DNA of 20,162 nucleotides from Ilumatobacter sp. (GTDB taxonomy: Bacteria; Actinomycetota; Acidimicrobiia; Acidimicrobiales; Ilumatobacteraceae). Each line of letters starts with the position of its first letter. Position 1 is the first letter of the stretch. The notes beneath the pieces are model-generated. The model had not been told where the DNA came from. It did not search any database and saw nothing but the letters and a program-made list of their open reading frames with translations. This document shows positions 10,470-20,162 of this stretch, one piece after another. The stretch is from contig JAJCXU010000366.1 in assembly GCA_029263275.1 (NCBI GenBank), positions 1 to 20,162 of the forward strand, given 5' to 3'. The translations under genes and the position numbers were made by a program.

Positions 10470-11812
10470 CAACGCCCTACAACGAGGCGCTCGGCGCCAC
10501 ACTGATCGACCGGACGATTCGCGAGAAGATCGTGCTCGTCGGAGTCACATTGCCCGGAGACGACGAGGAGTCGACTGAAGCCAGTCTCGATGAGCTCGCC
10601 CTCCTCGTCGACACCGCCGGTGCTGATGAAGTGGCCCGCATGGTGCAGCGACGTGATGCGCCTGACCACACGTGGTTCATCGGCAAAGGCAAGGCCGAGG
10701 AACTGAAACAGCTCTGCCTGGCGGTCGACGCCGACACCGTGGTCTTCGACAACAGCCTCGCACCCGCTCAGCAGTACAACCTCGAGAAGATGCTCGGTCG
10801 AACCGCGATCGACCGAACCGCAGTGATTCTCGACATCTTTGGCCAGAACGCACACACGCTCGAAGGCAAGGCCCAGGTCGAGTTGGCCCTCCTTCGCTAC
10901 CGGCTGCCGCGGCTCCGCCGAGGCATCACCGACAAGCAGTCGCAACAGCGCGGTGGCGTCGGTGCCCGATTTGGCGGTGGCGAAACCAAGACCGAAGTCG
11001 AGCGGCGACGGATCAAGCGTCGCATCAACAAACTCGAGAAAGACCTCGACGGATTGGCCGAGACTCGATCGCTGCAGCGCAAGGGTCGCAACAAGAGCGG
11101 CCTCGCCAACGTCGCCATCGTTGGCTACACGAACGCGGGAAAGTCCACGCTGCTCAACGTGCTGACACAGTCTGGCGTGCTGGTCGAAGACCGTCTCTTT
11201 GCCACGCTCGACCCGACGACCCGACGACTCTCGTTGCCCGGCGGTGAGCCTGTGTTGCTCAGCGACACCGTCGGCTTCATCAGCAGACTGCCGCACGGGT
11301 TGATCGAGTCATTCAAGGGGACGCTCGAAGTGGCGGCGATGGCTGATTATCTCGTCCACGTGGTCGACGCGAGCGCGCCCGACCCTGAGGCTCAGATCGA
11401 TGCAGTGCGCGAGGTGCTCGCCGATATCAAGGCTGCTGAGGTTCCGGAGCTGCTCGTGTTCAACAAGGCTGATGTCGAGCCAGGAGTCGCCCAGCAGTTG
11501 GCCGAGTCGCACCCAGGCTCCGTTGCCATCAGCGCCGTCAATGGGGAGGGCGTCGAGACGTTCCTCCGCACGCTCGGTGATCGGCTTCGGGCGCTCGCGG
11601 TGGTCTACGAACTCGTTGTCCCCTACGACCGAGGCGACATCTTGGCGTCGGTGCACCGCGAGGGCGAAGTGGTGTCGATCGGCGATGGAGCTGGCGAGAC
11701 CGGCGAAGCCTGGCTGATCCGTGCCCGTTTGTCCGATGCCTCCGCGGGTCGGCTCGGTGAGTTCGTCGTCGGCACGCAGTCTCCGCCCGACTCCACTCAG
11801 GAGAATCCATGA
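10466..11812 (+). CDS. hflX: ribosome-associated GTPase HflX
   Basis: GTPase that binds the large ribosomal subunit and in studied species splits or rescues stalled ribosomes. The 448-residue product has the HflX N-terminal domain (about residues 15-200, with LVDTAGADEVARMVQRRDAPDHTWFIGKGKAEEL and the GRTAIDRTAVILDIFGQNAHTLEGKAQVELA block). A linker rich in Arg/Lys and Gly (GGVGARFGGGETKTEVERRRIKRRI) precedes the G domain: G1 GYTNAGKS (220-227), LFATLDPTTRR, G3 DTVGF and G4 NKAD. The GTG at 10466 overlaps the dapF stop as GTGA and gives the standard N-terminus; the open frame upstream lies inside dapF. Its stop overlaps the dapC ATG. Neighbourhood with miaA is an old bacterial arrangement. 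Confidence 0.97.
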   Translation: MTTPYNEALGATLIDRTIREKIVLVGVTLPGDDEESTEASLDELALLVDTAGADEVARMVQRRDAPDHTWFIGKGKAEELKQLCLAVDADTVVFDNSLAPAQQYNLEKMLGRTAIDRTAVILDIFGQNAHTLEGKAQVELALLRYRLPRLRRGITDKQSQQRGGVGARFGGGETKTEVERRRIKRRINKLEKDLDGLAETRSLQRKGRNKSGLANVAIVGYTNAGKSTLLNVLTQSGVLVEDRLFATLDPTTRRLSLPGGEPVLLSDTVGFISRLPHGLIESFKGTLEVAAMADYLVHVVDASAPDPEAQIDAVREVLADIKAAEVPELLVFNKADVEPGVAQQLAESHPGSVAISAVNGEGVETFLRTLGDRLRALAVVYELVVPYDRGDILASVHREGEVVSIGDGAGETGEAWLIRARLSDASAGRLGEFVVGTQSPPDSTQENP

Positions 11813-15231: not shown

Positions 15232-15696
15232 ATGAAATGCCCTGTCTGCCGTGACGATGAGACGAAGGTCGTCGATTCACGCGTGGCCGAGGAGAACACT
15301 GCCATTCGCCGCCGTCGGCAGTGTCTGAGCTGTGCGCATCGCTTCACCACGTTTGAGCGGGTCGATCACGCGCCCCTCACGGTCGTGAAGTCAGACGGTC
15401 GCGTCCAGCCGTTCGATCGGCAGAAGCTGGTGAGCGGACTCTCGGCGGCCACGAAGGGTCGCGACGTGGCGCCCGCCACGCTCGACGAGATCGCCGGTTC
15501 GGTCGAAGATGCCCTACGCCTCGAGGGCTCAGAGGTCACGAGCGCGAACATCGGCCTCGTCGTGCTGAAGGAGCTGCGCACCGTCGATGAGGTCGCGTAC
15601 CTGCGATTTGCCAGCGTCTACAAGGAGTTCGATGCGGCGGCCGACTTTCACCGCGAACTCGAACTCATGGAGAAGGCCGACCCCGCGTCCGTCTGA
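15232..15696 (+). CDS. nrdR: transcriptional repressor NrdR
   Basis: Nucleotide-sensing repressor of ribonucleotide reductase genes. The 154-residue length is standard. The N-terminal zinc ribbon has C3, C6, C31 and C34 (CPVC and CLSC) with the family signature VVDSR and IRRRRQC. The ATP-cone occupies about residues 46-136 (VVKSDGRVQPFDRQKL, then LRTVDEVAYLRFASVYKEF). The ATG at 15232 gives exactly the family N-terminus (MKCPVC) and has a TACTGT -10 7 nt upstream. The frame is open back to 14518 through the LysM gene, but that part is a shadow. No ribonucleotide reductase gene lies in the window; in many actinobacteria nrdJ follows nrdR. Confidence 0.98.
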   Translation: MKCPVCRDDETKVVDSRVAEENTAIRRRRQCLSCAHRFTTFERVDHAPLTVVKSDGRVQPFDRQKLVSGLSAATKGRDVAPATLDEIAGSVEDALRLEGSEVTSANIGLVVLKELRTVDEVAYLRFASVYKEFDAAADFHRELELMEKADPASV

Positions 15697-15799: not shown

Positions 15800-16480
15800 T
15801 CAGCGTCGACGTTTCCATCGGCTGAACACGAACGACTGGTCGTCGATCACCATCTGCGCGAGGTCAAAGCGCTGCGCCAAGTCGTCAGCACCTGCCGTGA
15901 GACGGGGTCCCGCCCCGCCGACGCACAGCGGCGAGGTGGTGAGATTGATCTCATCGAACAGGTCAGCGTCGAGGACAGCACCGTTGAGCAGCGCTCCGCC
16001 CTCGACCTGAACGAAGTGCGGCGCGGGATGGATCTCGGCGAGGCGAGCCACCGCGGACCGAAGGTCGACGATCTCCTTCCCGGCGCGGATGACGTCGACG
16101 CCGGGAGCAATGTCGGTCTCGTTGGTCGTGATCAGGAAGCCAGCGCCTGATGTGAAGAGCGGCAGCGACGTGTCGACTCGGCCGCTCGCGGTGACCACGC
16201 CGATGCGCTGACCGACGGTGTCGGGTGGGCCATACCCCTCACCGCGAACGGTGCCGGCGCCGACGATGATGACGTCGGCGAGCCGTCGGAGACTGAGCAA
16301 CACGGTCAGATCGTTCGCACTCGACAACTCGGTGCTCCTGCCATCGACCACGGTCGAACCATCAATCGAGCTGACCATGCACAGGCCCACCCACGACCGA
16401 TCTCGCGGTGCCCCGAGTGGGGCGTCATAGGCCTGCGGGATGGTCGTGTCAGCGGAGTCGGGAAAGACGCGACGAGTCAT
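15800..16480 (-). CDS. RibD C-terminal-domain reductase (Rv2671-like, pyrimidine/dihydrofolate reductase fold)
   Basis: From the ATG at 16480 the product has 226 residues and consists of one RibD C-terminal (DHFR-like, NADPH-dependent reductase) domain with no deaminase domain. Diagnostic stretches are VGLCMVSSIDGSTVVDGRS, LADVIIVGAGTVRGEGYG, IGVVTASGRVD, VEGGALLNGAVLDADLFDE and TTSPLCVGGAGPRL. Together they recall mycobacterial Rv2671, a RibD homologue able to stand in for dihydrofolate reductase; that parallel is from memory. Likely role: reduction of a pterin or riboflavin precursor in the cytoplasm. The frame is open to an ATG at 16528, only 5 bp from the divergent oxidoreductase start. 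GAGGA lies 8 nt before the 16480 ATG, so that start is preferred. Confidence 0.82.
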   Translation of the reverse strand: MTRRVFPDSADTTIPQAYDAPLGAPRDRSWVGLCMVSSIDGSTVVDGRSTELSSANDLTVLLSLRRLADVIIVGAGTVRGEGYGPPDTVGQRIGVVTASGRVDTSLPLFTSGAGFLITTNETDIAPGVDVIRAGKEIVDLRSAVARLAEIHPAPHFVQVEGGALLNGAVLDADLFDEINLTTSPLCVGGAGPRLTAGADDLAQRFDLAQMVIDDQSFVFSRWKRRR

Positions 16481-16533
16481 GGCGTGATCCTCGCAGACTC
16501 GCCGCTCGACCACTGGGTCTGCGATCATCGGTG

Positions 16534-18852
16534 ATGGCCGTCATCGAGAACGATTCCGCAACCGAGTCCGCAAACCAGACGGGGATCGCGGTCGGGACGC
16601 GAACCGCTTATCGGACGTGCCCGCTGTGTGAGGCGACCTGCGGCTTGGAGATCACCCTCAAGTCCGACGGCGCCGGCGGAGAGACGGTCCAGCGCATTCG
16701 CGGTGACATGAACGACGTGTTCTCGAAGGGGTTCATCTGCCCGAAGGGGTCGACCCTCAAGCACCTCCACGAGGATCCTGACCGGTTGCGGACACCGCTG
16801 ATCAAACGAGACGGCGCGCACGTCGAGGCGACCTGGGAAGAAGCGTGGGCCGCGATCGATGCTGGCCTCGCTGGTGTCATCGAACGTCACGGACGGGCAG
16901 CGCTCGCGATGTATGGCGGCAACGCCGGCGCGCACTCGTTGTCATCGATGATGTACCTGCGGAGTCTGCTCGTCAGCCTCGGCACCAAGAACCGGTACAG
17001 CGCGTCAACGGTCGACCAGATGCCGCGTCACGTGGCTGCCGGCCACATCTTCGGAACGCCGGTGACCGTGCCGGTTCCCGACCTCGACCGCACCGATCAC
17101 CTGCTGATCCTCGGGGCCAACCCCTACGCGTCCAACGGCAGCATGTGTACGGCCCCCGACTTTCCTGGACGCATCGAACGCATCCGCGAGCGTGGGGGCA
17201 AGGTCGTGGTGGTCGACCCACGCCGTTCGCGGACCGCTGAGGAGGCAGACGAGTGGATCGCCGTGCGCCCTGGGTCCGACGCACTGCTGCTCGCCGCCAT
17301 GTGCAATGTGCTGGTCGATGAGGACCTCGTCGAGGTTGGGGTGCACGTCGGCGAGTACCTCAACGGGCTCGACGAGTTTGCGGCAGCGATTGCACCCTTC
17401 GCACCAGAGTCAGTCACCGACGCCACGGGCGTGGCGGCTGACACGATCCGAGTGATGGCCCGAGAGCTCGCTGCCGCGCCGACCGCAACGGTCTACGGCC
17501 GGATCGGGACGACGACCACCGAATTCGGATCGACGGCGACATGGCTCATCGATGCGTTGAACATTCTCACCGGGAACCTCGACCGTCCCGGGGGAGCCAT
17601 GTTCGCGATGCCCGTCGCCGGGGGAGCGACCACACGCGGCAAGAGTGGCTCCGGCCGCGGGTTCGCGGTGGGGCGAGGTCACACACGAGTCAGTGGCCGC
17701 CCCGAGGTCATGGGCGAATACCCCGTCGGTGCACTCGCCGAGGAGATCACCACCCCGGGTGACGGCCAGCTCCGAGCCTTGGTGACGGTCGGAGGCAATC
17801 CGCTCCGGTCCAACCCGAACAGCGAATTGCTCGCCGAGGCCTTCGCTGACCTCGAGTTCATGGTGTCGGTTGATCTGTACCTGAACGAGACCACGCAGTT
17901 TGCTGATGTGATTCTTCCCGCTCCGTCGCAGCTGCAGCGGAGCCACTACGACCTGCTGCTGATGCAGTTCGGCGTCCGCAACGTTGCCAACTACTCCGAG
18001 CGAGTTCTCCCGCTTGACGGCCAGCCGGACGAATGGGAGGTGCTGTCGAAGCTCGCCATGGTCGCCCAGGGGATGGGTGTCGACGGCGACCCGGCTGTCG
18101 CTGATGACATGACGATTGACGCGATGGTTCGAGGTGCGGTCGCCAATGAGCACAGCGCGTTGCACGGTTCCGACGCTGATGACATTCTCGCGGAACTCAA
18201 TGCATCAGGGCGGGTGGGCCCCGAACGCATGCTCGACTTCATGCTCCGCAGCGGCCCCTTCGGGGACGGGTTCGGATCGGACCCCGACGGCACGTCGCTC
18301 GACGACCTGCTGCAACACCCACATGGCCGTGACTTCGGAGCGCTCGAACCCCGCCTTCCCGAGATTCTCCGAACACCGAGCGGCAAGATCGAGTTGGCCC
18401 CGCCAGTGTTCGTTGACGACCTCGAGCGACTCGCCGACGCGGCCCCTGGTCTTGCCGAGCGAGGGCTCGTGCTCGTTGGTCGCCGTCACCTGCGAAGCAA
18501 CAACTCGTGGATGCACAACATCAACGTGCTGGTGAAGGGCAAGCCTCGCTGCACCCTGCACGTCCATCCCGATGATGCTGCGTCGCTCGGCCTGAGCGAC
18601 GGAAGCGCCGCGTCGATCACCTCGCGCGTCGGGTCGGTCACCGCTCCCGTCGAGGTCACCGACAGCATCACGCCCGGCGTGGTCAGCCTGCCGCACGGCT
18701 GGGGACACAACGCGCCCGGGGCGCAGATGCGTGTCGCCGCCGAACACGCGGGAGTGAACTCGAACGTGTTGACCGATCACGAAGCGATGGACCCGCTGTC
18801 GGGCACTGCGGTGCTCAACGGGATTCCGGTCGAGGTCGCCGCAGCCAGCTGA
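16534..18852 (+). CDS. molybdopterin-dependent oxidoreductase with N-terminal 4Fe-4S site
   Basis: The 772-residue product belongs to the DMSO reductase superfamily. The 4Fe-4S ligands are C29, C32, C36 and C69 (CPLCEATCGLEI ... CPKG). The molybdopterin core follows (PLIKRDG, then LLILGANPYASNGSM, VVVDPRRSRTAEEADEWIAVRPGSD, LTGNLDRPGGAMF, ALVTVGGNPLRSNPN). The C-terminal dinucleotide-binding domain is about residues 640-770, with LRSNNSWMHN, LPHGWGH and a final LNGIPVEV. No Tat signal is seen, so it should be cytoplasmic. Around residues 155-163 (YSASTVDQM), where this superfamily commonly places its Mo/W ligand, there is no Cys and no in-frame TGA for selenocysteine. No partner subunit, FdhD or cofactor gene is adjacent. 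Substrate unknown; a formate dehydrogenase label would be unsafe. GTG 16531 is an alternative start. Confidence 0.88.
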   Translation: MAVIENDSATESANQTGIAVGTRTAYRTCPLCEATCGLEITLKSDGAGGETVQRIRGDMNDVFSKGFICPKGSTLKHLHEDPDRLRTPLIKRDGAHVEATWEEAWAAIDAGLAGVIERHGRAALAMYGGNAGAHSLSSMMYLRSLLVSLGTKNRYSASTVDQMPRHVAAGHIFGTPVTVPVPDLDRTDHLLILGANPYASNGSMCTAPDFPGRIERIRERGGKVVVVDPRRSRTAEEADEWIAVRPGSDALLLAAMCNVLVDEDLVEVGVHVGEYLNGLDEFAAAIAPFAPESVTDATGVAADTIRVMARELAAAPTATVYGRIGTTTTEFGSTATWLIDALNILTGNLDRPGGAMFAMPVAGGATTRGKSGSGRGFAVGRGHTRVSGRPEVMGEYPVGALAEEITTPGDGQLRALVTVGGNPLRSNPNSELLAEAFADLEFMVSVDLYLNETTQFADVILPAPSQLQRSHYDLLLMQFGVRNVANYSERVLPLDGQPDEWEVLSKLAMVAQGMGVDGDPAVADDMTIDAMVRGAVANEHSALHGSDADDILAELNASGRVGPERMLDFMLRSGPFGDGFGSDPDGTSLDDLLQHPHGRDFGALEPRLPEILRTPSGKIELAPPVFVDDLERLADAAPGLAERGLVLVGRRHLRSNNSWMHNINVLVKGKPRCTLHVHPDDAASLGLSDGSAASITSRVGSVTAPVEVTDSITPGVVSLPHGWGHNAPGAQMRVAAEHAGVNSNVLTDHEAMDPLSGTAVLNGIPVEVAAAS

Positions 18853-18880
18853 CGAAGCTCGCTGAGTCAGGCGACGCATC

Positions 18881-18907
18881 GGTTTCGTCACAGGCTGTGG
18901 ACAAACC
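18881..18907. terminator. symmetric hairpin after the oxidoreductase gene
   Basis: GGTTT (18881-18885) and AAACC (18903-18907) enclose CACAG (18889-18893) and CTGTG (18895-18899), all centred on 18894. It begins 29 bp after the stop and has no U-tract. Its right arm overlaps the perfect DnaA box, so it may instead be part of that cluster. Confidence 0.4.
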
Positions 18908-18986
18908 CTGCTTGTTCACATTGTGTCCACACGGTTGTCAACACCTATTCACTGCATTTACCGAGTAATTCACAGGGTTGTCCTCT
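18896..18986. promoter_or_regulatory. cluster of DnaA-box-like nonamers
   Basis: A perfect actinobacterial DnaA box, TTGTCCACA, lies on the minus strand at 18896-18904. On the plus strand follow TTGTTCACA (18912), GTGTCCACA (18923) and TTGTCAACA (18935), each one mismatch from it. Looser copies are CTATTCACT (18945), TAATTCACA (18966) and TTGTCCTCT (18978). Plus-strand starts are spaced 11, 12, 10, 21 and 12 bp, close to whole helical turns. The 18941-18974 part is AT-richer than its surroundings. This could be an origin-like, DnaA-titrating or DnaA-activating site, or a DnaA-regulated promoter. dnaA and dnaN are not in the window. Confidence 0.6.
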
Positions 18987-19009
18987 TCCATCCCACAGGC
19001 AGAGGTTCC

Positions 19010-19015
19010 TAGAGT
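19010..19015 (+). promoter_or_regulatory. -10 element upstream of the candidate structured RNA
   Basis: TAGAGT ends 8 nt before the inverted repeat at 19024, where a transcript would be expected to begin. No clear -35 was found. Confidence 0.4.
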
Positions 19016-19023
19016 GAGTGCTC

Positions 19024-19137
19024 GTGCCGCCAGTGGCGCAACACATGGAGAGTCGGTGGAAGCGAGACGACGCTTGTCGGATCGCCCTGCTTGGGGGATC
19101 ATGCCCTGTACCTGTGTTGTTGCTTCACTGGCGGCAC
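19024..19137 (+). ncRNA. candidate structured small RNA closed by a 12-bp perfect stem
   Basis: GTGCCGCCAGTG (19024-19035) is the exact reverse complement of CACTGGCGGCAC (19126-19137). The stem continues inward through a G-U pair and one mismatch to GCAACA/TGTTGC (19038-19043, 19118-19123). After a bulge comes CATGG/CTGTG (19044-19048, 19112-19116). The enclosed part forms two hairpins: AAGCG/CGCTT (19060-19064, 19071-19075), and GATCGCCC/GGGGGATC (19080-19087, 19093-19100, one mismatch). A -10 lies at the right distance upstream. It does not show the signatures of SRP RNA, RNase P RNA or tmRNA. The same stretch holds an open frame from GTG 19024 to TGA 19188 (54 codons) of no recognisable composition, so a leaderless peptide gene cannot be excluded. 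Confidence 0.5.
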
Positions 19138-19162
19138 CATTGCGTCGTGGCGCTCGTTGCCT

Positions 19163-19203
19163 GTGATGCCCGTCGATCAACAGCTTGAAAACGTCGGGAT
19201 CAC
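19163..19203 (+). terminator. hairpin downstream of the candidate RNA
   Basis: GTGAT-G-CCCG (19163-19172) pairs with CGGGATCAC (19195-19203) with one bulged G, around a 22-nt loop containing GAAAA. It may end the RNA upstream. No U-tract follows. Confidence 0.4.
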
Positions 19204-19229
19204 CACCGGCGCCCACGGCTCCCGCCTTC

Positions 19230-19235
19230 TACGAT
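19230..19235 (+). promoter_or_regulatory. -10 element of a leaderless promoter (small membrane protein gene)
   Basis: TACGAT is followed by 6 nt and the ATG at 19242. Confidence 0.55.
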
Positions 19236-19241
19236 GCAGGC

Positions 19242-19511
19242 ATGGCTGAACACCTGAGTGACGCCGAACTCGCAGATCTCGCGATGGCGTCGACCCCCAC
19301 GGATCCGTTTGCCGACGGTGCCGTTCCGTTTGGCCAGGAGTCGATGGGTGCTGAGTTGCTGCCCGAGTGGTACATGCCCGTACCCCAGATGTCGGCGGCG
19401 GATCGGACGCCGCGTCGTGTGTTCACGGTCGGGCTCATCATTGTGGCGATGTTGCTCCTCAACGGCGTCGGCCTGTGCGTCACCTACGGCCTGCCCGAGA
19501 TCGCTTGGTGA
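19242..19511 (+). CDS. small single-helix membrane protein of unknown function
   Basis: The 89-residue product has an acidic, helical N-terminal half (AEHLSDAELADLAMAS, recalling the start of small regulatory adaptor proteins), a Pro/Met-containing middle (LLPEWYMPVPQM), a basic TPRR stop and one membrane helix at about residues 62-82. By charge the N-terminal part is cytoplasmic. I do not recognise the family. The MAEHLSDAELADLA opening with an EWYMP motif may be useful for homologue searches. The ATG at 19242 is supported by TACGAT 6 nt upstream and absence of any ribosome binding site. The frame is open to 19185, but no start there has better support. The epimerase gene follows after 38 bp with its own -10. 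Confidence 0.72.
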   Translation: MAEHLSDAELADLAMASTPTDPFADGAVPFGQESMGAELLPEWYMPVPQMSAADRTPRRVFTVGLIIVAMLLLNGVGLCVTYGLPEIAW

Positions 19512-19537
19512 GCGCGAGCCGGCTCAGACGCCCTCGG

Positions 19538-19543
19538 TAGCCT
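19538..19543 (+). promoter_or_regulatory. -10 element of a leaderless promoter (epimerase gene)
   Basis: TAGCCT, the same hexamer as before miaB, is followed by 6 nt and the GTG at 19550. Confidence 0.55.
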
Positions 19544-19549
19544 GCCGGC

Positions 19550-20162
19550 GTGCGCGTTCTTGTCACCGGTGCAGCCGGGTTCATCGGTTCCCACGTCTGC
19601 GAGCGCCTCGGCCAGTCCTCTGATGTGACCGACGTGGTCGGCATCGACGATCTCTCGACAGGATCGACCAACAATTTGAGCGGAATCGACGTCCGGCTCG
19701 TCACTGGGTCGATGCTCGACGAAGCCGCATTGGCAGACGCCATGGCCGGGGTCGACACAATTGTGCACCTCGCGGCTCGCCCGTCGGTGCCTCGATCGAT
19801 TGCCGACCCGGTCGCCTCGCACGAGGCGAACACGGTGGGCACGATGCGCATTCTGGAAGCTGCCCGAACGCTGAGCGACGCACACGTCATCGTCGCGTCA
19901 TCCTCGTCGGTCTATGGCTCGAACCCCACGCTGCCGAAGCACGAGATGCTGGCCACGTTGCCAGTGTCACCGTATGCCGCAAGCAAGCTGGCGGCGGAGC
20001 AGTACGCGCTGGCTTGGCAGAAGAGCTTTGGTCTCAAGACGCTCGCCTTCCGATTCTTCAACGTGTACGGCCCCCGTCAGGAGCCGGGCCATGCATACGC
20101 CGCCGTTGTCCCAGCCTTCACGCATGCGGCGTTGTCCGGTGAGCCACTGCAAGTCCACGGCG
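19550..20162 (+). CDS. NAD-dependent epimerase/dehydratase, extended SDR, UDP-glucose 4-epimerase-like (3' partial)
   Basis: The first 204 codons are present and the gene runs off the right edge. The N-terminus is the Rossmann motif VTGAAGFIGSH (residues 5-15), followed by an acidic strand end DDLSTG that favours NAD. VDTIVHLAARPSVPRSIADP, the catalytic-Ser strand VASSSSVYG and the YAASK catalytic Tyr/Lys motif come next, then FRFFNVYGPRQ. This is the standard order for UDP-glucose 4-epimerase and related nucleotide-sugar enzymes of cell-wall or exopolysaccharide synthesis. The exact sugar cannot be told without the C-terminal half. The GTG at 19550 lies 6 nt after TAGCCT and directly starts the Rossmann strand. 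Confidence 0.93.
   Translation, partial: MRVLVTGAAGFIGSHVCERLGQSSDVTDVVGIDDLSTGSTNNLSGIDVRLVTGSMLDEAALADAMAGVDTIVHLAARPSVPRSIADPVASHEANTVGTMRILEAARTLSDAHVIVASSSSVYGSNPTLPKHEMLATLPVSPYAASKLAAEQYALAWQKSFGLKTLAFRFFNVYGPRQEPGHAYAAVVPAFTHAALSGEPLQVHG

Follow-up and report, generated by a model that had tools for sequence, protein, structure and literature searches.

The subject of this analysis was a stretch of 20,162 bp from Ilumatobacter sp. (contig JAJCXU010000366.1, hereafter the window), which is one contig of a metagenome-assembled genome (MAG) of 672 contigs and 3.54 Mb that is 70% complete, and in particular an intergenic array of DnaA-like boxes within it. Comparison across genomes indicated that this array probably belongs to a DnaA-controlled promoter at a ribonucleotide reductase locus, and that the promoter would drive a structured RNA; we put the probability of this interpretation at about 0.6. 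From the sequence comparisons we infer DnaA as the binding protein, the activity of the promoter, activation or repression as the effect, and the role of the RNA. A DnaA-regulated promoter for a downstream RNA was among the functions that the initial annotation of this DNA had offered and is the one that the comparative evidence favours; the promoter itself, comprising a conserved core and a -10 hexamer at a fixed distance, and the covariation of the RNA had been missed.

A phased array of DnaA-like boxes precedes a predicted promoter

The elements of the array, the predicted promoter and the predicted RNA are as follows.

18896..18904, minus strand: perfect DnaA box TTGTCCACA (sequence match)
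18912..18920, plus strand: DnaA-like box TTGTTCACA, one mismatch, in a 2-bp-spaced pair with the box at 18923 (sequence match, double-box scan)
18923..18931, plus strand: DnaA-like box GTGTCCACA, one mismatch, in a 3-bp-spaced pair with the box at 18935 (sequence match, double-box scan)
18935..18943, plus strand: DnaA-like box TTGTCAACA, one mismatch, at the TCCACAG of the family consensus (sequence match, consensus)
18945..18953, plus strand: degenerate box CTATTCACT, near the TTTCCCCAG of the family consensus (sequence, consensus)
18966..18974, plus strand: looser box TAATTCACA, first of the core double box (sequence match)
18967..18989, plus strand: conserved core AATTCACAGGGTTGTCCTCTTCC, a 3-bp-spaced double box (18966-18974 and 18978-18986) followed by CTTCC (genome scans, consensus, double-box scan)
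18978..18986, plus strand: looser box TTGTCCTCT, second of the core double box (sequence match)
18989..18997, plus strand: box-like CATCCCACA, the conserved CCACAGG element (sequence, consensus)
19010..19015, plus strand: predicted -10 hexamer TAGAGT, 20 bp after CTTCC, with a predicted transcription start near 19022 (TANNNT conservation)
19024..19139, plus strand: predicted structured RNA with a 17-bp closing stem carrying one bulge, a small GGGG/CCCU hairpin and a conserved ACCUGUG (folding, covariation)

The box sequences, coordinates and spacings first reported for the array were exact, and a further copy was found to follow at 18989. The start-to-start distances of the plus-strand boxes were 11, 12, 10, 21 and 12 bp, with another 11 bp to the extra copy, and a stretch of lower GC content was present (55% versus 64%). 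Five sites with no more than one mismatch to TTGTCCACA occurred in the window, four of them inside 48 bp. When sites matching TTGTCCACA or TTATCCACA at this threshold were counted after shuffling the 175-bp intergenic stretch 2000 times and the whole window 100 times, the maximum was two per 60 bp. Similarly, no 60-bp stretch with three or more such sites was found in a 1.2-Mb sample (60 stretches of 20 kb, 25% of the genome) of G006, a complete genome of the same genus, so that equally dense matches elsewhere were seen neither in the shuffled window nor in this sample. Since the sample took in the element of G006 itself as well as its dnaA region, G006 does not retain the strict cluster. The MAG contained six copies of TTGTCCACA, compared with 16 of a reversed control; two lie upstream of dnaA (contig C580), one upstream of dnaB (contig C219), one in the array and two elsewhere. 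A perfect DnaA box at a seemingly intergenic place was also noted near position 1647 of contig C415.

A chromatin immunoprecipitation sequencing (ChIP-seq) study showed that DnaA of E. coli binds box pairs separated by 2 or 3 bp, with close matches at 15 of 16 bound regions (PMC11317965). This double-box rule, which was fixed outside the present data, was applied to the window and revealed three pairs in the array: 18912/18923 (gap of 2 bp, two mismatches), 18923/18935 (gap of 3 bp, two mismatches) and 18966/18978 (gap of 3 bp, four mismatches). The two better pairs overlap, and another pair with four mismatches was present at 10827 in a coding stretch. The 1.2-Mb sample of G006 yielded 15 pairs with four or fewer mismatches and none with two or fewer.

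The array was compared across seven loci of the same genus. The core was present in all seven and was the most constant part, the boxes 5' of it being variable. A minus-strand box with no or one mismatch lay upstream of the core in five loci, once as TTATCCACA, and in three loci (L007-L009) the places of the boxes were constant while TTG and TTA interchanged. Conservation of the nonamers in close relatives, which had been named as a check on the array, was found in part: the upstream boxes were clear in five loci (L007-L010 and L013) and degenerate in two (L011 and L014).

When 60 genomes were searched for sequence similar to the intergenic stretch, eight gave a match, its own included, from two genera. 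Among 150 genomes of the family, 38 each held a single copy of the core CACAGGGTTGTCCNCTTCC with at most one mismatch and the other 112 held none, while the reversed pattern gave no match; a longer form of the core, with up to three mismatches, was found in 22 of 298 genomes of the order, compared with six for its reversed pattern. A scan of 84,980 GTDB species genomes for a degenerate form of the core returned 75 loci, most of them from records whose titles name Acidimicrobiia or Actinomycetota. Nine loci were set aside as not being nrd loci: L122, L154 and L156, which are titled as other phyla and are probably chance matches, the unclear L190, three at a small-protein gene (L127, L162 and L191) and two at dnaB (L137 and L159). 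This left 66 nrd loci; flanks of the full 95 bp were available for 64 of them, and a non-redundant set at less than 85% identity comprised 27. Six MAG records (L136, L138, L142, L149, L181 and L186) are titled Bifidobacterium breve; their nrd locus is as in Acidimicrobiia, and the titles look wrong.

The 27 non-redundant loci gave a consensus of TCCACAG, TTTCCCCAG 12 bp further on, an A-rich stretch, AATTCACA after another 20 bp, TTGTCCACTTCC after 12 bp, CCACAGG after 11 bp and then CCGTANNGT. The unit as a whole can be described as phased DnaA-like boxes leading to AATTCACA-GGG-TTRTCCAC-TTCC, then CCACAGG and a -10 hexamer, with a hairpin RNA in most of the lineages examined. A double box with four or fewer mismatches was present in 24 of these elements, and 64 of 65 nrd-locus hits carried the motif TANNNT 20 bp downstream of CTTCC. 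A position weight matrix (PWM) built from the 27 loci, with the G006 sample as its single-genome background, scored 59.4 for the element in the window, where the next best site scored -19.1, and 63.7 for the element of G006, where the next site in 1.2 Mb scored -7.6. The conserved consensus, the fixed distance of TANNNT and these matrix scores together suggest that the array is the upstream half of a promoter. Scans of the window stretch revealed neither a canonical -35/-10 pair nor a canonical terminator.

The predicted transcript is a structured RNA

The hairpin starts 9 nt after the -10 hexamer and is 104 to 137 nt long as aligned in the clade. In an alignment of 14 sequences (genera g1, g17 and g19 and two scan records, with L011 omitted), the closing stem with its bulge, the GGGG/CCCU hairpin and the ACCUGUG motif were retained; 14 of 23 base pairs showed compensatory change, in 26 cells, and 95.6% of cells paired. 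None of 500 shuffles reached the covariation score, and slid controls gave one to six pairs without reaching it; a score based on further pair types was equalled by one of 500 shuffles. Over 31 hand-chosen loci the folding z score had a median of -2.4 and a best value of -5.8, and for the hairpin of the window it was -1.8 or -2.9, depending on the chosen ends. A model of the RNA (R1), built from the 14 sequences and searched against 54 loci that were also chosen by hand, gave one convincing match, L041 (E = 3e-5), with weaker matches at the expected place in L174 (E = 0.095) and L022/L168 (E = 0.17).

Rfam gave no match at E≤10 in positions 18840 to 19560, and the corresponding RNA region of 18 loci from relatives gave none either. 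6S RNA (RF00013) was considered as a candidate and rejected, as it was found in none of 45 relatives at E≤1 with stricter filters, a search that was positive in five of 14 control genomes.

The predicted promoter and RNA lie at a ribonucleotide reductase locus

Four genes or open reading frames (ORFs) of the window define the setting of the array.

15232..15696, plus strand: nrdR, conserved upstream neighbour (TIGR00244 above cut-off, Pfam)
15800..16528, minus strand: RibD C-terminal domain protein, conserved neighbour (Pfam)
16408..18852, plus strand: molybdopterin oxidoreductase ORF, conserved neighbour, its true start probably inside the ORF (Pfam, locus comparison)
19242..19511, plus strand: small ORF without a Pfam or NCBIfam family, at the position of nrdJ in relatives (family searches)

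The gene order includes recA, lexA and nrdR and continues with the RibD-domain gene, the molybdopterin oxidoreductase, the array, the RNA-like hairpin, the small ORF and a sugar epimerase. Pfam thereby bore out the molybdopterin oxidoreductase and NAD-dependent epimerase named initially as neighbours, with the small ORF, which has no Pfam family, between them; matches to this ORF were found beside the RNA in several same-genus loci. The window also carries two transfer RNA genes (866-938 and 1001-1072; Rfam). Over the 66 nrd loci, matches were obtained to nrdR in 40, ribD in 30, the molybdopterin oxidoreductase in 53 and nrdJ, which encodes class II ribonucleotide reductase, in 61. In the five loci without an nrdJ match the sequence ends 34 to 433 bp downstream.

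The real output of the promoter may instead be nrdJ, the RNA being merely the structured leader of a distal DnaA-controlled promoter. We consider this unlikely, but it is the strongest competitor of the interpretation given above. In 61 of the 66 loci, similarity to NrdJ lies on the same strand and begins 239 to 568 bp downstream, some relatives keep the promoter and nrdJ without the RNA, and nrdA of E. coli offers a precedent. However, a NrdJ probe of 113 amino acids from another genus, which matched four of 13 genomes, found no match in nine of ten same-genus genomes (some of them incomplete, one a complete chromosome), and six of these nine show the core and the RNA. The nrdJ gene of the window's genome is on another contig. 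In addition, inspection by eye suggested that a TTGACA-type promoter separates the RNA and nrdJ in many loci; in L018, L024, L025, L041 and L043-L045 it was accompanied by palindromes that look like NrdR boxes. As nrdJ and the RNA come apart in both directions, the promoter's conservation cannot be put down to just one of them, and both may profit from it.

Similar box layouts occur upstream of dnaB

A role of DnaA as a transcription factor is known from a small number of model bacteria, where ribonucleotide reductase is one of its targets. Related box layouts were found before dnaB, of which 30 loci from 29 genomes (L193-L222) were examined. Ten of these had a double box with two or fewer mismatches, in every case on the dnaB strand and 69 to 240 bp ahead of the DnaB similarity. 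The PWM exceeded its G006 background in 15 of the 30 loci, always on the dnaB strand and in 14 cases upstream. DnaA-box-like copies stand before dnaB in many of the 30 loci and in the MAG (contig C219, near 7025), and some of the layouts are close to that of the RNA promoter. The same background, which comes from one genome, was also exceeded by three of 27 dnaA loci (L049, L050 and L052), as would fit a DnaA-box layout. A hand-made table of 27 genomes, divided by the third base of the core box (G or A), showed TTATCCACA near dnaA in four of five genomes with a TTAT core, compared with three of 22 with a TTGT core (Fisher's test, p = 0.009, not corrected for kinship).

The core consensus AATTCACA-GGG-TTRTCCACT-T shares the double-box layout of E. 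coli, where the box pair of nrdA is gTTATCCACAaagTTATGCACTt (PMC11317965); the second box ends CACTt there and CACTT in the present consensus, although the window's own second box is TTGTCCTCT. Unlike nrdAB of E. coli, the locus described here is actinobacterial, holds a class II rather than a class I reductase and has a longer array with a structured RNA in between. For E. coli and Caulobacter, a review (PMC8203912) describes the regulation of ribonucleotide reductase genes by DnaA as well as predicted boxes at dnaB. DnaA-like boxes upstream of dnaB are thus shared with Caulobacter; the difference is that the dnaB array seen here resembles the array of the RNA promoter. These observations fit a small regulon comprising the RNA/nrd locus, dnaB and a small gene under one box-binding protein, most simply DnaA.

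The small gene was encountered in other families, where the core stands directly before it at L127, L162, L191, L096, L102, L111 and L114-L116; it has no Pfam family. In most of these loci its start codon is so near the -10 hexamer that the mRNA may be leaderless.

A different DNA-binding protein could own the core, its likeness to DnaA boxes being incidental, an explanation that we rate slightly lower than that of nrdJ as the output. It would account for the conservation of CTTCC and AATTCACA beyond the needs of a DnaA box, for a ninth base other than A in the main box and for the presence of the core before the small gene in other families. It agrees poorly with boxes that repeat mostly at 11 to 12 bp in one orientation, with the match to the E. 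coli double-box rule, with the perfect boxes in the genus and with the recurrence of boxes before dnaB.

The element is distant from dnaA

A site resembling datA or DARS, which alters the nucleotide state of DnaA or titrates it and is transcribed incidentally, is improbable. Like datA, DARS1 and DARS2 of E. coli, the array is a cluster of DnaA boxes outside the origin, and its boxes are in excess of what a promoter needs. Moreover, the distance between the element and dnaA was similar in three single-contig relatives (1.84 Mb in G006, 1.89 Mb in G069 and 1.67 Mb in G027, or approximately 0.35 to 0.38 of the chromosome). Three genomes are too few, however, and the gene cluster may simply have stayed in place; the conserved promoter that abuts the boxes, unlike the E. 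coli sites, with its fixed -10 spacing, the conservation of the RNA and the like arrangement before dnaB all argue against such a site.

A second or displaced chromosomal origin, which had also been suggested, can be dismissed almost entirely in spite of the dense boxes and lower GC content, because dnaA with ordinary boxes is on another contig (C580) of the MAG and the element of G006 lies near the maximum of cumulative GC skew. In that genome dnaA maps to base 625 and the element to approximately 2,993,150; the skew maximum, calculated from the sampled stretches, was at approximately 2.94 to 2.98 Mb and was not opposite dnaA. Since this skew was weak and noisy and the sample covered 25% of the genome, it shows no more than that the element of G006 is on the terminus side. 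A search for dif as a marker of the terminus gave one weak match in seven genomes. As a candidate for oriC itself the element was rejected, being neither beside dnaA/dnaN nor at the skew minimum.

Evidence weighing against a DnaA-controlled RNA promoter

Several results weigh against the interpretation of the element as a DnaA-controlled promoter of a structured RNA. With regard to the boxes, the second box of the core has no ninth A and the first has two or three mismatches, and the scores of the single boxes are consequently modest. A double box with four or fewer mismatches was absent from three of the 27 elements. The pair of the G006 element has four mismatches, as have 12 other sites in the 1.2 Mb, so that the double-box rule on its own does not single it out among these 13; the degenerate upstream boxes at L014 and L011 belong to G006 and G007, respectively. 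The matrix did not reach its background in the other 15 dnaB loci. With regard to the RNA, the folding z score was above -1 in L034, L099, L101, L112 and L174. In L024 (identical to L188), L027, L118 and L164 the promoter is kept and the RNA is absent, with 38 to 53 nt before the next TTGAC motif; the 38 nt of L118 fold at a z score of -3.4. Finally, R1 matched three of 198 genomes of the order (stricter filters), all from the window's family; the sequences diverge greatly and the model finds few distant members, so that what links the RNA of distant genera is position and fold, not sequence.

Proposed mechanism and significance

We propose that DnaA binds cooperatively to the phased boxes, many of which are 2 to 3 bp apart, up to the terminal double box. 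This double box would sit immediately 5' of a sigma-A-type promoter that has a good -10 hexamer and no recognisable -35 hexamer, and DnaA occupying the upstream boxes and this double box, directly before the -35 position, would help this -35-less promoter. The last box (18989-18997) overlaps the promoter, which would be repressed when ATP-DnaA fills that box; this direction of control is presumed. Ancestrally, the unit would be part of the nrdR-nrdJ locus and tie it to replication, as DnaA does with nrdA in E. coli, and in the window's genus nrdJ would have gone from the site while the promoter and the RNA remained.

A more speculative and rather doubtful extension is that the transcript is a DnaA-controlled regulatory RNA of Acidimicrobiia, perhaps their missing 6S- or Ms1-type binder of RNA polymerase. 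Its level would track the DnaA cycle and link initiation to the provision of nucleotides through nrd and of helicase through dnaB. Like 6S and Ms1 RNA, it is a single long hairpin with an interrupted middle; it differs from 6S RNA in the lack of an Rfam match in the 45 relatives and from Ms1 RNA in its neighbours, which for Ms1 are a HAD hydrolase and others (PMC9130861).

DnaA-controlled nrd and dnaB promoters are known; the present case is new in its lineage, in the strictness of its shared promoter layout and in its structured RNA. A literature search, outside which most subscription papers lay, revealed no report of DnaA boxes from Acidimicrobiia or of nrdJ being regulated by DnaA. The sharply defined layout of the promoter makes the proposal directly testable. 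If it is correct, production of an RNA at a locus for DNA building blocks would be tied to the start of chromosome copying, and the nrd-DnaA logic, with a hitherto undescribed structured RNA as a product, would hold across a large group of aquatic actinobacteria, most of them uncultured.
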